A stretch of 32,181 bases of DNA from Oscillospiraceae bacterium (GTDB lineage: Bacteria; Bacillota; Clostridia; Oscillospirales; Oscillospiraceae): assembly GCA_017439425.1 (NCBI GenBank), contig JAFSJE010000018.1:1-32181 (forward strand), in the 5' to 3' direction. Shown in pieces: positions 28,001-32,181 of this stretch (positions within the stretch are counted from its first letter, which is position 1; the number at the start of each line of letters is the position of its first letter). The translations under genes and the position numbers were made by a program. Below the pieces are notes generated by a model, which worked only from the letters and a program-made list of their open reading frames with translations, made no database searches and had not been told where the DNA came from.

Positions 28001-28487
28001 TTATCTGTTTATGATCGAACCTTCTCCGCCACGAACGGGATATTCGTCCAGCTTGCTTTGAAGTTCTTTTTTTGTTTCTCGCACAATTCGGAGCATCTCA
28101 TTTTTATGCTTCGGGAGGAGTGCCAAGATCGCAGAGGCGGCGAAGCTCCGCGTCCGTCTTGTGCTTGATATTCTGAATGGAAGCATACATGGCGATGGTT
28201 TTCACTTTTGACAGTTTTCTGTGTATGGCTTCCGCAATTGTTGTTAGTTTATCAGCAGAAAGCACGAATGCGTCGCCGTGCTCGAGAAAAACCCGATCGA
28301 TGTCCGGACATACCCGCGCTGCTTCTTCGATATCCTCTTCGATCTGCTCCATTTGGCACACAGTGAACTGAATGTCCGGGTACATGTGGCAGAATGTGCA
28401 TTTGTTATGGCTGCAGCCGAGCGTGACATGCAAGAGGAGCGAGTTTGCCTCATACGGTGGTCTGTAAACCATTCCGGTCAGATTCAT
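28001..28487 (-). pseudogene. Radical SAM gene with internal deletion
   Basis: The first 120 codons are well kept: YRPPYEANSLLLHVTLGCSHNKCTFCHMY with the iron-sulfur cysteines 25, 30 and 33, then VFLEHGDAFVLSADKL and YASIQNIKHKTDAELRRL. The frame then ends in PPEA and a stop. From about 28124 down to 28003 another frame encodes LLPKHKNEMLRIVRETKKEL...YPVRGGEGSIINR, the expected C-terminus of the same family. Since intact members have close to 300 residues, about 130 middle codons are missing, with a frame change at the joint near 28112-28124. The protein is almost surely inactive. The start has GGAGG upstream and overlaps the stop of the decayed HxlR-type gene (ATGA). Confidence 0.85.
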
Positions 28488-28835
28488 TGTTTTCCGCCTC
28501 CGTTCATCTGCGCGATATACTCGCTGCCGAAGGTCTCCATTGCCGCGATCACCTGGTGGAACTTTTTGCCGATCTCGATAAGAGAGTATTCCACTCTCGG
28601 CGGGATCGCTTCAAACTGTTCCCGTTTGACCAGCCCGTATTCTTCAAGGGATTTGAGCTAAACGGAAAGCGTTGCGTGCGTCATCTTCGGCATCTTTCGG
28701 AGAAGCTCATTGAAACGGATCGGACCGTCCTCCATAAAACAGGATCAGCATCGCCCACTTGCCGGATATGAGGCTCTGCGCCGTTGCATACGGGCATAAT
28801 CCGAAGCGCTCCTCTAATGTAGTTTGTCTTTCCAT
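28484..28835 (-). pseudogene. HxlR-type transcriptional regulator, broken by a frameshift and an amber codon
   Basis: The product would begin MERQTTLEERFGLCPYATAQ and continue SLISGKWAMLIL, the HxlR start with its Cys before the winged helix. One extra base in the TTTT run (plus-strand AAAA, 28736-28739) shifts the frame; removing it gives MEDGPIRFNELLRKMPKMTHATLSV, then TAG at 28658-28660 where the family has Gln, then LKSLEEYGLVKREQFEAIPPRVEYSL up to the TGA at 28484-28486. HxlR proteins sense reactive electrophiles or redox stress through the N-terminal Cys and usually control the adjacent gene, here the radical SAM gene. Confidence 0.85.
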
Positions 28836-29001: not shown

Positions 29002-30018
29002 TCATTTCAGACCGCTCTGACCACGATTCCATTTCAATTCTTCGAGCAATTCCGCGGTGTCGCCATCGAGGCAGATAGACTGCTTCTCGATTTCCCTCGG
29101 GCAATACGCTTCGCCGTAATTCAGGCAAGCGTATATTGCCTTCTTGTTGTCTCTCGTCATCTGCCAGAAGGGATACTTGATGATCACCGGAGTGTTGGCG
29201 CCGACGCCTATCTCCAGATACAGCACGTGCAGGTTTTCGTGCCTGCGCAGAAAATCGGAATACGCAGCCGACGCCCTGCGCCAGCCTGCATCCTCGACAA
29301 AGCTGTCGTCCGACCGCAGATTCATAGTTACCGGATCGCCGTTTGGAGCGGTGGGGATCAGTTCTGTCGGCAGAGCCATTGACACGGCGCCGTTTTCCGG
29401 AATACGGAATATGCCGTTTTCATCTCTGATAAAGCCCTGCGCTTCCATAGCCCGCATCGTCCACTCCTCGTTGTCGAAGGTTTCCTGCACCTTCGGATCG
29501 ACGCTCTGGAACAGACCGTAATCTCCCTGCGTATAGAACAGCCGCTTTTTGTCGAAGCCCGCGCGCTGGAACTGGTGATCCACGTTTGTCGTGATCACAA
29601 AATAGTCTTTTCCATCCAGTAGGCTCAGCAGATTCTGATAAACGGGCTTTGGGGCAGACACATAGCGGTTGAAGTAGATGTTTCTTGCCCAATAGGCCCA
29701 CATAACCTCCGGCTCTACATTCATTACAACAAAGCCGCCGGTGTACATATCGTGAAAGCCGAAGGCCTTTTCAAAATCGGAAAAATATCTTTCGAAGCGT
29801 TCGCCGGAATAGATCATGCCTGCCGCCGTGGAGAGCCCCGCTCCGGCACCGACAACGATGGCGTCCGCGCTTTCAAGCTCCGCCTTCAGCCTTGCAAGCT
29901 TCTCCTGGCGGGTTCCGGTCCCGCGGGAAACGTGAAGGTCATAATTACGCACTGCGAAGAGACCTTTTTGTATGGATTCAAGATAGCCGTTTTGCTGATT
30001 ATTGTAAGAGTTCTTCAT
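29002..30018 (-). CDS. Class M sirtuin (SirTM), putative NAD-dependent protein ADP-ribosyltransferase
   Basis: 338 residues. The NAD-binding sirtuin start is VVGAGAGLSTAAG (about 55-67), and TTNVDHQF supplies the conserved Asn145. Ordinary sirtuins next have a catalytic His; here the segment reads FYTQGDYG, with Gln164 in its place. That Asn/Gln pattern and the adjoining macrodomain gene mark class M sirtuins, which in Staphylococcus and Streptococcus ADP-ribosylate a lipoylated GcvH-like protein. No GcvH-L or LplA2 gene is seen here, so the target is open. ATG 30018 is chosen with GAGGA about 11 bases upstream; it overlaps the macrodomain gene by 20 bases. An ATG at 30048 is the alternative. 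It is the last gene of the operon. Confidence 0.88.
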   Translation of the reverse strand: MKNSYNNQQNGYLESIQKGLFAVRNYDLHVSRGTGTRQEKLARLKAELESADAIVVGAGAGLSTAAGMIYSGERFERYFSDFEKAFGFHDMYTGGFVVMNVEPEVMWAYWARNIYFNRYVSAPKPVYQNLLSLLDGKDYFVITTNVDHQFQRAGFDKKRLFYTQGDYGLFQSVDPKVQETFDNEEWTMRAMEAQGFIRDENGIFRIPENGAVSMALPTELIPTAPNGDPVTMNLRSDDSFVEDAGWRRASAAYSDFLRRHENLHVLYLEIGVGANTPVIIKYPFWQMTRDNKKAIYACLNYGEAYCPREIEKQSICLDGDTAELLEELKWNRGQSGLK

Positions 30019-30805
30019 AGTATGCTTTATCCTCGTCTTTGAACACATTGAAAATCACCCGGTCGACCTGTCCTGTGTGTTCATCCAGCCATTTGCTTAC
30101 GGTTTTGACCGCAATTTCTGCCGCCCGCTGGTTTGGAAAGCGGAATACGCCCGTTGAAATACAACAGAAAGCCACACTGCGCAGTCCGTTCTCGGCGCAG
30201 AGGTCAAGAGAATTCCGATAGCAGTCTGCCAATTCCTGTTCAAGTGCCTTTGTCAACCGCCCCTCAACAATCGGGCCGACGATATGAACGATCTTCTTCG
30301 CTGGAAGGTTGTAGCCATCCGTCAGCATGGGGACAGCGGTCGGCTGCTCGTAATCTCTGCCATAGCGGATGCGAAGCTGATTCATCTGCCGATTGCATTC
30401 AGCCCGCAACTGCACGCCCGCAAAGGTATGGATGCAGTTGTCGATGCAGGTGTGCATCGGGACGAAGCATCCCAGCATCTGCGAGTTGGCGGCGTTCACA
30501 ATGGCGTCAACGGCAAGCCGGGTGATGTCACCCTGCCAGATGGACATGCAATTCCGAATAACGGGAATCTCCGAAAGCGTGACAATCCCGTTTTCACGGA
30601 TACGCTCCCGCAGGTATTCATCCTGAACGGCAAGCACCGAATCGTCCAGCTTCTTCGGCATACGAATGTTCATCAGAGAGCGGAGGATTCGCCGTTTGCC
30701 CTCGTTATCCTCCGGCGTCTGTAAATTCTTATATTGAACGGAATCGGCCTTAAACGCTTCAACCAGCGTATCGAGCCGTTGTTCCTGTGTCATTTTCTCA
30801 GTCAT
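29999..30805 (-). CDS. Zinc-type macrodomain protein, protein-ADP-ribose hydrolase
   Basis: 268 residues. A helical N-terminal extension (about 1-85) precedes the macrodomain: WQGDITRLAVDAIVNAANSQMLGCFVPMHTCIDNCIHTFAG, with the three zinc ligands Cys113, His118 and Cys120 expected for the SirTM-linked class, and CCISTGVFRFP as the phosphate-binding loop. The family removes ADP-ribose from proteins, reversing the sirtuin modification. AAGG lies 7 bases before the ATG. The gene starts 4 bases after the ferredoxin-like gene and overlaps the sirtuin start by 20 bases, so the hydrolase and transferase are made together. Confidence 0.92.
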   Translation of the reverse strand: MTEKMTQEQRLDTLVEAFKADSVQYKNLQTPEDNEGKRRILRSLMNIRMPKKLDDSVLAVQDEYLRERIRENGIVTLSEIPVIRNCMSIWQGDITRLAVDAIVNAANSQMLGCFVPMHTCIDNCIHTFAGVQLRAECNRQMNQLRIRYGRDYEQPTAVPMLTDGYNLPAKKIVHIVGPIVEGRLTKALEQELADCYRNSLDLCAENGLRSVAFCCISTGVFRFPNQRAAEIAVKTVSKWLDEHTGQVDRVIFNVFKDEDKAYYEELLQ

Positions 30806-30809
30806 GAAG

Positions 30810-31430
30810 CTACCTTCTTTCTACCGCTCCCATAGGGCACGCCTCTATGCAGTTTCCGCAGTGCAGGCAATGCTCCTGTTCGATCACGTGAGGAACACTG
30901 TCTGTGACAATACAACTTTGAGGGCAAACAGCCGCGCAGCTTCCGCAGCCGATGCAGGAATCTGTAATGAAGTATCCTTCCGGTTTCTGTTCTGCTCCTC
31001 CGAAGGTGAAGGAGGCTCGCTCAATCGGCTTTTTCGAGAGATCAAACCACTCGCCGGTGCCTTCGTAAACCTGAAAGACGGTCAGAACTTTCATGGATTC
31101 CTCCGTCGGATAAATCTCTTTCATGTACGGATTCTTCGCAAACAGTTCCGGTATTTTGTCATATCCAAGCTCGCGCACCCTGCCTCTGATCGACACCGCT
31201 ACGCTGCTCATCGTATCCTTGCCTTTCATAGCGGTCAGCGCAAGAAAACCTCTCTTGATGAGTCGGTCATAGAAGCCCTTGCCCTTCGCCGTCAGAAAGT
31301 ACAGGCTGTTTTCATCACAATCCATCATGTCGATGGCAGCGGTGACGGGAAGCCCCTCATCGTCCACGGTTGCTACAATCGTTGTATGTATTTCATTTAC
31401 GATGTAGGAAAGATAATCTGATGTTTTCAT
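30810..31430 (-). CDS. Pyridoxamine-phosphate-oxidase-fold flavoprotein fused to a 2x[4Fe-4S] ferredoxin domain
   Basis: 206 residues. Residues 1 to about 140 form a flavin-binding split barrel (TTIVATVDDEGLPVTAAIDMMDCDENSLYF then FLTAKGKGFYDRL, as in PNPOx-like proteins). The last 50 residues hold two full clusters: Cys159, 162, 165, 169 and Cys188, 191, 194, 198, each CX2CX2CX3CP. It can therefore pass electrons between flavin and iron-sulfur centres and may sense redox state. True PNPOx activity is unlikely. It lies between the Rrf2 regulator and the macrodomain gene (4 bases apart). How redox connects to ADP-ribosylation is not known. Confidence 0.88.
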   Translation of the reverse strand: MKTSDYLSYIVNEIHTTIVATVDDEGLPVTAAIDMMDCDENSLYFLTAKGKGFYDRLIKRGFLALTAMKGKDTMSSVAVSIRGRVRELGYDKIPELFAKNPYMKEIYPTEESMKVLTVFQVYEGTGEWFDLSKKPIERASFTFGGAEQKPEGYFITDSCIGCGSCAAVCPQSCIVTDSVPHVIEQEHCLHCGNCIEACPMGAVERR

Positions 31431-31451
31431 AATAGCGCCTTTCGCAAAAGA

Positions 31452-31477
31452 CTCCGGAAGAATGTTATCCTCCGGAG
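31452..31477 (-). terminator. Weak terminator or attenuator between rrf2 and the operon enzymes
   Basis: A 7 bp stem CTCCGGA/TCCGGAG (31452-31458 with 31471-31477) is followed on the minus strand by GTCTTTTGC. The short T-tract suggests only partial termination, which would lower expression of the enzymes relative to the regulator. Confidence 0.45.
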
Positions 31478-31485
31478 CCTTGGAT

Positions 31486-31926
31486 TTATTTATCCTCTGC
31501 CAGAAGCTCAGTCATGCCGCTGCGAAGATCGAGAAGCGTGTATTTCCGCAGTTCGTCCTCCATCGCGTTCTGAATCGCTTTCAGCTTGTCATCAAGCAAT
31601 GCATGGATGTTCCTGCCAACCGGGCATTCGGGGTTGGGACTTTCGTGGAAATGGAACAGATCTCCGTTTTCTACTGCTCCGATCGCCTCATACACATCGT
31701 AAAAGGTGATTTCCGACAAGTCCCTTGTCAGTTCGATGCCGCCCGTGCCTCTCGCCACGCTGATCAGCCCGGCGTTTTTGAGCTGCGTCAGGATCTTCCG
31801 TATGATGACCGGATTGGTGTTGATCGATCCTGCTAAGAATTCGCTGGTGACCTTGTGCTCATCCTTGAACACATCCACGCAGGTGAAAATGTGCAAGGCT
31901 ATTGTAAACCTGCTTGAAATCTGCAT
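31486..31926 (-). CDS. Rrf2-family transcriptional regulator
   Basis: 146 residues. MQISSRFTIALHIFTCVDVF is the standard Rrf2 start, followed by a winged helix with TSEFLAGSINTNPVIIRKILTQLKNAGLI and VARGTGGIELTRD. Only Cys16 and Cys101 are present, so the three-Cys iron-sulfur site of IscR and NsrR is missing; Cys101 (PECPVG) may act as a single thiol sensor, as in CymR/YwnA-type members. ATG 31926 has GGAGG 7 bases upstream. It is the first gene of the SirTM operon and is probably its repressor, acting at the promoter just upstream. Confidence 0.9.
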   Translation of the reverse strand: MQISSRFTIALHIFTCVDVFKDEHKVTSEFLAGSINTNPVIIRKILTQLKNAGLISVARGTGGIELTRDLSEITFYDVYEAIGAVENGDLFHFHESPNPECPVGRNIHALLDDKLKAIQNAMEDELRKYTLLDLRSGMTELLAEDK

Positions 31927-31946: not shown

Positions 31947-31975
31947 ATTTTATCACGGAATGACTGTAATTTCAA
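31947..31975 (-). promoter_or_regulatory. Sigma-A-like promoter of the rrf2-SirTM operon
   Basis: On the minus strand TTGAAA (31975-31970), a 17 base spacer and TAAAAT (31952-31947). It ends 20 bases before the rrf2 ATG. A weak dyad with TTAC and GTGATAA overlaps the spacer and could be the Rrf2 site. Confidence 0.65.
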
Positions 31976-31983
31976 TGGTTACA

Positions 31984-32181
31984 TTAGAATTTGCCATTCT
32001 CGTTTGCCCAAGTCTCCTTGGCAGCAAGAGTCTCCATCACGTCCCAATGCTCAGCGATAAAGCCGTTTTCAACACGGAAGAGATCGTAATAGGTGGTGGG
32101 CACGCCGCCAAAGGAACCTTCGCTGCAGGCGAGAGCATAGTCGCCGTCGGCAAGAACCATATGCGTCTTGTCATAGACCAT
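31984..32181 (-). CDS. SnoaL/NTF2-like protein, C-terminal part (cut by the right edge)
   Basis: 65 residues are visible, ending in HWDVMETLAAKETWANENGKF. The strand pair VLADGDYALACSEGSFGG and YYDLFRVENGFIAEHWDV is typical of SnoaL-like members of the NTF2 fold, small cytoplasmic barrels with varied ligands or enzyme roles. The N-terminal half lies beyond 32181, so size and start cannot be given. It is on the same strand as the SirTM operon, but the rrf2 promoter lies between them, so it may belong to a separate transcript. Confidence 0.75.
   Translation of the reverse strand: MVYDKTHMVLADGDYALACSEGSFGGVPTTYYDLFRVENGFIAEHWDVMETLAAKETWANENGKF

Follow-up and report, generated by a model that had tools for sequence, protein, structure and literature searches.

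A redox-linked operon pairing a class M sirtuin (SirTM) with a zinc-dependent macrodomain protein (Zn-Macro) and a recurrent iron-sulfur flavoprotein lies at the right end of contig JAFSJE010000018.1 of an Oscillospiraceae bacterium (assembly GCA_017439425.1; 2.3 Mb, 95.5% complete). The window analysed is the entire contig of 32,181 nucleotides (nt). On its minus strand, the end of a SnoaL-like gene is followed by genes for an Rrf2-family regulator, the flavoprotein, Zn-Macro and SirTM. We read this locus as a thiol- or electrophile-stress operon in which SirTM and Zn-Macro would switch the flavoprotein, and give this reading a probability of about 0.45; that the operon is a co-regulated redox-stress unit we consider highly probable. 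New here is a SirTM/Zn-Macro operon that has a recurrent iron-sulfur flavoprotein, an operator-like palindrome of its own and a SirTM without structural zinc. Its features are the following.

29002..30048, minus strand: SirTM (class M sirtuin), beginning at 30048 or, alternatively, at the ATG at 30024; the four zinc cysteines are missing from its small domain
29999..30805, minus strand: zinc-dependent macrodomain, predicted protein-ADP-ribose hydrolase with an intact zinc loop (CFVPMHTC); overlaps the SirTM gene
30810..31430, minus strand: putative flavoprotein, PNPOx-type split barrel with C-terminal 2[4Fe-4S] ferredoxin domain; PF01243 and two Fer4 sites
31448..31481, minus strand: covarying 14-bp hairpin, then a short U tract, in the spacer between rrf2 and the flavoprotein gene; attenuator- or partial-terminator-like
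31486..31926, minus strand: Rrf2-family regulator, PF02082; alternative GTG start at 31956
31947..31975, minus strand: promoter-like TTGAAA-17-TAAAAT, -35 hexamer within the palindrome
31965..31983, minus strand: operator-like palindrome TGTAACCATTGAAATTACA, from the pattern match and relatives
31984..32181, minus strand: SnoaL-like gene, C-terminal part only, truncated at the contig end; score 20.2 bits, below the Pfam cut-off

The first-pass annotation of this DNA had placed four minus-strand genes here (rrf2, flavoprotein, macrodomain and SirTM), and profile and PDB matches bear out all of them. The flavoprotein and Zn-Macro genes are 4 nt apart, and the Zn-Macro and SirTM genes overlap by 26 or 50 nt depending on the SirTM start chosen. 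In the nearest relatives of the operon (loci L125, L126, L127 and L193) the SnoaL gene is whole and adjoins rrf2.

The association of the flavoprotein with the SirTM/Zn-Macro pair is recurrent. Among 295 genomes of the order (the order set), 22 of 30 flavoprotein matches, in 21 of 27 genomes, have Zn-Macro and/or SirTM as a same-strand neighbour, and 21 of these 22 are no more than 68 nt from the Zn-Macro gene. The linkage was scored with 68 macrodomain matches; another 21, weaker and matching only from query residue 76 on, were left out, and none of them is on a contig with a flavoprotein or SirTM match. A phylum sample of 249 genomes has SirTM in 12 and the flavoprotein in seven, the two being adjacent in the host of the window and in genomes G361, G437 and G513. 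Scanning of a species-genome collection with the flavoprotein alignment found at least 575 relatives, the best 80 of which were fetched as named loci. Among the names in their titles are Hornefia, Pseudoramibacter, Shuttleworthella, Oribacterium, Kandleria, Eggerthia and Eubacterium oxidoreducens; many of the genomes come from rumen or gut metagenomes. Forty-six named loci were scorable, with flanks of 1.5 kb or more ahead of the flavoprotein gene and 2.6 kb or more behind it, and in 39 of them this gene adjoins Zn-Macro and/or SirTM, a count conditional on the flavoprotein, which was the bait. The order is flavoprotein-Macro-SirTM in 29 loci, flavoprotein-SirTM in five, Macro-flavoprotein-SirTM in two, and flavoprotein-SirTM-Macro, flavoprotein-Macro and SirTM-flavoprotein in one each, with neither neighbour in seven; an Rrf2 gene is near in 38 and an HxlR gene in five. 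A survey finding the four genes rarely together would have undone the first-pass interpretation; they are often neighbours. Overall, 85 of 100 scorable flavoproteins are linked (largely the same loci).

Gene order within the cluster is fluid. With F for flavoprotein, M for Macro and S for SirTM, seven arrangements occur: FMS, FS, SF, MSF, MFS, FSM and FM. The flavoprotein tree (110 rows, out of 112 before removal of short rows or those with inner stops; ten flavoproteins went unscored as their contigs end early) requires at least 16 changes of gene order and, among linked cases, at least 10 changes of Macro presence, while on the SirTM tree flavoprotein linkage changes at least 23 times. In 10 FS and three SF cases the flavoprotein gene stands beside SirTM with no Macro within 3 kb (L203 is cut by the contig end). 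The flavoprotein of L177 is close to those of L174 and L178 (path 0.11-0.12), and the respective SirTMs belong to different groups (path 1.28-1.33). Such repeated assembly points to a joint function of the flavoprotein with SirTM and Macro.

The flavoprotein consists of a split barrel (residues 1 to about 145; PF01243, 32.2 bits against a cut-off of 28.1) and a ferredoxin domain with two Fer4 sites, in which all eight cysteines are present (C159/162/165/169 and C188/191/194/198). Its model has a mean predicted local distance difference test score of 95, and the best structural match of the model is the PNPOx-related protein 2hhz (E = 2.5e-10), which is also found by sequence. Profile score and split-barrel fold together make it a PNPOx-like protein, and it presumably binds flavin mononucleotide (FMN) as its family does.

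SirTM has its best PDB match in 5a3a, the SirTM of S. pyogenes (SpySirTM; E = 3.9e-46), with which residues 46-338 align and to which its model is closest (template modelling score 0.87 by target, 0.73 by query). The catalytic His of the HG motif is replaced by Gln (YTQGDYG) as in class M, the GVGx[NT]TP motif is present as GVGANTP, and the gene adjoins that of a zinc macrodomain. Residues N147, Q166 and R237 align with Asn118, Gln137 and Arg192 of SpySirTM, mutation of which lowered activity dramatically (PMC4518038). With its catalytic motifs intact, the window SirTM is predicted to be a protein ADP-ribosyltransferase without deacylase activity, as expected of class M.

All four cysteines of the structural zinc ribbon are replaced in this SirTM, a feature missing from the first-pass annotation. 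A zinc-coordinating small domain is seen in 5a3a; the accessible parts of PMC4518038 and PMC11490716 do not state it as a requirement of the class. We found no description of a zinc-less SirTM, or of this operon, in the accessible parts of the open-licence literature, supplements aside. The four-cysteine ribbon is absent in 53 of the 122 SirTMs of the tree (134 rows before those that were short or had inner stops were dropped). One change (support 98) explains this absence, or two with the zinc columns left out, so ribbon loss would have had one or two origins; a second tree left out 16 divergent SirTMs, and all trees were quick ones. Forty-seven of the 53 ribbon-less SirTMs are linked to the flavoprotein, a number conditional on the bait with which most of them were fetched. 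The members of 11 independent pairs were always alike in zinc state, which leaves no contrast for tying zinc loss to flavoprotein linkage.

The host genome has further SirTM loci, likewise absent from the first-pass annotation, with two copies on contig C28, one on C41 and a fragment on C25. The C28 locus (L004, 246-3622) comprises a DUF1848 gene, a Zn-Macro gene and two tandem SirTM genes with intact zinc ribbons, the first C-terminally shortened. The C41 locus (L065, 47-4517) has genes for a radical SAM protein, a zinc-type alcohol dehydrogenase, a type-B flavoprotein and a divergent SirTM (37%) without Macro, followed by what looks by eye like a ferredoxin-like open reading frame (ORF). On C25 (L066, 6009-6182) there is a SirTM C-terminal fragment with a member of a D-2-hydroxyacid dehydrogenase cluster within 5 kb. 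In L119, L120 and L121, two or three divergent SirTM-like genes stand in tandem beside a divergent Rrf2 gene; no Macro was found alongside, and one member of each array has EG instead of the catalytic QG. A DUF5131 gene directly follows SirTM in L072 (by Pfam) and in L076, L078, L174, L178 and L179 (by tblastn).

The window Macro matches NF003163, the NCBI protein-ADP-ribose hydrolase model, over residues 5-268 (308.9 bits, cut-off 272) and PDB entry 8rsi (E = 4e-66). It has the N-terminal three-helix part and the compact loop of Zn-Macros, with C, H and C within eight residues. The C-x4-6-H-x-C zinc-loop pattern occurs in 107 of 107 Macros, and the window protein is predicted to bind zinc and to hydrolyse ADP-ribose linkages. 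A metal-based redox switch is an unlikely but conceivable extension: a SirTM that has shed its structural zinc would tolerate oxidants, while the catalytic zinc-thiolate of Zn-Macro could lose its zinc to them, so that oxidant stress alone would favour ADP-ribosylation of the flavoprotein with no dedicated sensor acting on either enzyme.

The Rrf2 regulator (110.9 bits with PF02082) has two cysteines, C16 and C101 (in CPVG), counted from the ATG at 31926. A CP[VI] cysteine is present in 60 of 60 operon-linked Rrf2 proteins and a further cysteine near residue 16 in 44 of them. In S. aureus, HypR senses oxidants via the Cys33-Cys99' pair (PMC10715087); the window protein has no Cys33 and scores 44.5 of the 180 bits required by the HypR equivalog model NF041852. 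By analogy with HypR, a thiol switch with another second cysteine, and redox sensing through it, is likely.

The palindrome TGTAACCATTGAAATTACA has one match in the window and none in 100 shuffles, the pattern having been written after viewing it. With up to two mismatches, this pattern, composed after the sequences had been seen, is found upstream of 37 of 55 operon-linked rrf2 genes and in 0 of 55 shuffled controls. It is absent upstream of the other 18, several of which have, by eye, another TGTAA...TTACA palindrome closer to the -10 box. The named loci total 712,772 bases, and on their two strands the pattern, at two mismatches, has 118 matches as well. Two or more exact copies are found in 18 loci, and an exact copy lies within 160 nt before SnoaL in 23 of 35 SnoaL-bearing loci. 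The promoter scan gave six promoter-like sites in the region where 3.3 were expected, so the window promoter is weak on its own; a similar promoter-in-palindrome arrangement is seen by eye in many relatives. In genome G071 (L071, G071:C17, 8784-8802) the same palindrome and promoter precede a SirTM gene with no adjacent Macro or Rrf2, which suggests a regulon controlled in trans.

The hairpin between rrf2 and the flavoprotein gene has a z score of -5.8. In an alignment of 19 of the 40 spacers, selected by eye and including the window, six of ten pairs have changed on both sides and 95% of cells pair, versus 29-64% in slid controls. Of the 39 spacers that are not empty, 37 contain a stem of at least eight pairs and 33 are equalled or outdone by two of 60 shuffles at most; there is little to be seen in L164, L169 and L200. 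A simple terminator scan did not call the hairpin at 31448-31481; our reading is a partial terminator or an attenuator. Palindrome and covarying hairpin are newly found cis-elements of the operon.

Our proposal builds on what can be read from the sequence: the genes and their layout, the recurrent linkage, palindrome and hairpin, the intact catalytic and zinc-loop motifs, and a host with no GcvH or LplA match. The Rrf2 repressor with its HypR-like CPVG cysteine would occupy the palindrome over its own -35 box; once oxidised it would release the palindrome, and the operon would be expressed. The ferredoxin-fused, NimA/PNPOx-like flavoprotein would hand low-potential electrons to a toxic acceptor. 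SirTM and Zn-Macro would reversibly ADP-ribosylate a client of the operon, most likely the flavoprotein, and so gate the electron flow. The flavoprotein would thus take the role of lipoyl-GcvH-L in the operon of Staphylococcus and Streptococcus, where the lipoyl carrier is the client and flavoenzymes are the neighbours (PMC4518038, PMC11490716). We infer the action of SirTM and Macro on the flavoprotein, and the effect of its ADP-ribosylation, from the linkage and from this analogy, and hold only tentatively that the flavoprotein is a direct SirTM substrate.

A number of observations tell against this proposal. The closest pair, in G032 (SirTM 67%, Macro 78% identical), is arranged rrf2-Macro-SirTM in a genome with no flavoprotein match, which shows that the flavoprotein is not obligatory to SirTM/Macro pairs. 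Upstream sequence of 4.5 kb is available for 36 order-set pairs, 19 of which lack a flavoprotein within that distance, and the flavoprotein is alone in 15 of 100 scorable cases. One lone flavoprotein (L122) is found beside HxlR and PNPOx133 genes; in L160 (7084-8600) the place of Macro and SirTM, about 0.5 kb after the flavoprotein, is taken by a canonical CobB-type sirtuin followed by a nitroreductase. Ribbon-less SirTMs found without the flavoprotein as bait are linked to it in two of eight cases, the window being one. The correlation of flavoprotein and SirTM distances is moderate (r 0.44), a value equalled by the highest of 500 shuffles. Among 296 adjacent pairs, no case was found of a core or partner gene fused to its neighbour. 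No acidic acceptor residue separates SirTM-linked from lone flavoproteins, the best conserved ones, E127 and D39, being equally conserved in lone flavoproteins. Finally, the genome of L126, a close relative of the window operon, has both GcvH and LplA, outside the fetched flanks.

We accordingly dropped strict co-evolution of flavoprotein and SirTM (moderate correlation, partner exchanges), gene fusion as a proof of coupling (none among the 296 pairs) and an acidic acceptor residue specific to SirTM linkage (E127 and D39 just as kept in lone flavoproteins). One flavoprotein scored as lone, that of L103, lies divergent beside a SirTM/Macro pair.

Almost as likely as a flavoprotein client is that the flavoprotein and SirTM/Macro share a stress regulon but act independently of each other. 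The flavoprotein would then detoxify in parallel, and SirTM and Macro would have their target elsewhere, for example in a lactate or alcohol dehydrogenase, a nitroreductase or a non-protein substrate. The neighbours are indeed mixed (nitroreductase, SnoaL, NAD-binding_10, PNPOx133, aldo-keto reductase, FMN reductase, D- and L-lactate dehydrogenase), and both the 19 of 36 pairs lacking a nearby flavoprotein and the G071 SirTM, which has no neighbouring Macro behind the same palindrome, fit this explanation. However, among the counted families only HxlR (24 of 36) matches or exceeds the constancy of the flavoprotein (17 of 36), the next reaching 6 of 36, and the flavoprotein remains beside SirTM despite rearrangement and loss of Macro.

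The counts in question come from the 36 order-set pairs with at least 4.5 kb upstream: HxlR 24, flavoprotein 17, an MBL-like gene (our label; no Pfam match) six, and SnoaL, nitroreductase, radical SAM and a second split barrel five each, with no counted family in eight. For one HxlR representative the top-scoring model is that of the redox regulator RrpB, at 123 of 175 bits and thus below the cut-off. Clusters of ORFs within 5 kb, scanned by one representative each, include aldo-keto reductase (17 loci), FMN reductase (13), flavodoxin (10) and D-2-hydroxyacid dehydrogenase (8), as well as general genes assigned by eye, LysR-like regulators (18) and ABC ATPases (11). The wider neighbourhood looks like one of redox-stress type. 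Genes resembling D- or L-lactate dehydrogenase lie inside the flavoprotein/Macro/SirTM cluster in L178, L179, L181, L198 and L201; the Pfam run covered L198 and L153, the latter being of the same cluster as L178, L179 and L181.

Downstream of SirTM in the window there are a short HxlR-like stretch (28511-28732, minus strand) and a short radical-SAM-like ORF (28104-28487, minus strand) with no Pfam match, which by eye resembles a 298-residue radical SAM protein of L165 (L165:2717-3610). Because HxlR and radical SAM genes lie near the flavoprotein in L165-L167, these pieces look like remnants of an alternative neighbourhood.

It is improbable that a hidden lipoyl carrier is still the target, either a GcvH-like protein too divergent for PF01597 or one encoded in the missing 5% or so of the genome. 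GcvH-L is the sole SirTM target known in print (PMC11490716), the host genome is 95.5% complete, and the genome of L126 shows that GcvH and LplA can coexist with the operon. Besides, our sample has no extended SirTM operon, so PF01597 lacks a true GcvH-L control and a very divergent GcvH-L could escape it. Since the contig ends at 32181, lipoyl partners beyond the right edge cannot be read from the window, and the search was carried to the host genome and relatives. The host has no match to GcvH (with PF01597, whose sensitivity for true GcvH-L was not controlled here) and none, at this completeness, to an LplA/LipB-type ligase. Ten ORFs around the operon were scanned in L125 and L126: eight have Pfam matches, none to GcvH or LplA, and two have no match. 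A tblastn search with one GcvH over the fetched loci found nothing beyond its source locus, and one with an LplA gave a single weak match (E 0.001, L245). Neither OYE nor LLM was among the nearby ORFs scanned, which are part of the flanks.

SirTM matches occur in 62 of the 295 genomes of the order; of these 62, eight have GcvH above 100 bits and 15 a ligase over the cut-off. Only once does GcvH share a contig with SirTM within 20 kb, at 7.1 kb from a divergent SirTM. Among 12 named genomes with a flavoprotein locus of this family, GcvH exceeds 100 bits in two and the ligase its cut-off in two; those of L131 and L126 have both. The 100-bit limit retains 26 of the 295 genomes, compared with 53 over the family cut-off (and four of the 12 named), and weak partial PF01597 matches of 19-32 bits were set aside. 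In addition, Macros of lone pairs and fusions are reported not to demodify GcvH-L (PMC11490716). A GcvH-L or LplA2 gene hidden nearby was rejected as a candidate, profile and tblastn searches having found none beside the operon.

The first-pass annotation had proposed a variant ADP-ribosylation system in which a redox protein replaces GcvH-L and LplA2, and had left room for these partners beyond the right edge or in the same regulon. None is found beside the operon in its nearest relatives or in the host genome. That proposal is partly supported. The missing lipoyl partners and the recurrent flavoprotein stand as parts of it, and its further idea, that the flavoprotein is target or trigger, is kept as a hypothesis only, pairs with no flavoprotein nearby being common; the absence of GcvH-L does not stand as a novelty, since lone SirTM/Zn-Macro operons without it are already known (PMC4518038, PMC11490716).

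Sirtuins and macrodomains are found in defence and DarTG-like systems, which is what speaks for an anti-phage or toxin-antitoxin module of NAD-consuming sirtuin and reversing macrodomain, yet we rejected this very improbable explanation, as PADLOC models gave no match to the four proteins, the neighbours are redox or metabolic genes and the same cluster recurs in many species.

For the preferred reading, with the flavoprotein as client, the recurrence of this gene in bacteria of gut and rumen points to a possible protein partner for a pair with known targets in one system only. A recurrent partner gene, often with a common palindrome, reduces the target question to a single enzyme assay with a defined protein. 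From the zinc-less SirTM group it would seem that a sirtuin can do without its structural zinc, and a zinc-free writer with a zinc-dependent eraser makes a natural pair for studying redox control by metal loss.

The extended SirTM operon of Lactobacillales and Staphylococcaceae (GcvH-L, Zn-Macro, SirTM, LplA2, often OYE/LLM; PMC4518038, PMC11490716) resembles the window in having SirTM beside a zinc macrodomain, together with a redox carrier and flavoenzymes and a link to oxidative stress. It differs in that neither GcvH-L nor LplA2 was found at the window operon, where a PNPOx-ferredoxin protein precedes Macro, and in that the family of the window has Rrf2 or HxlR genes alongside and a zinc-less SirTM. 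Lone SirTM/Zn-Macro pairs, as in Enterococcus faecalis and Treponema pedis (PMC4518038, PMC11490716), have the two genes adjacent without GcvH-L, and the window belongs with them: its pair is adjacent, and GcvH-L and LplA2 were not found. No partner is named for the lone pairs in the accessible parts of these sources, whereas here many pairs come with a recurrent flavoprotein and many are linked to Rrf2 with a common palindrome. Like the HypR-MerA operon of S. aureus (PMC10715087), the window has an Rrf2-family regulator with a cysteine in the CPVG region adjoining the gene of a flavin-type enzyme, although the second cysteine is C16 rather than Cys33 and the flavoprotein is unrelated to MerA. 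The flavoprotein itself has the fold of PNPOx-like general stress and NimA-type split barrels (PDB 2hhz, 2ig6; for 2hhz by sequence and model), to which, unlike 2hhz and 2ig6, it adds a C-terminal 2[4Fe-4S] ferredoxin domain.

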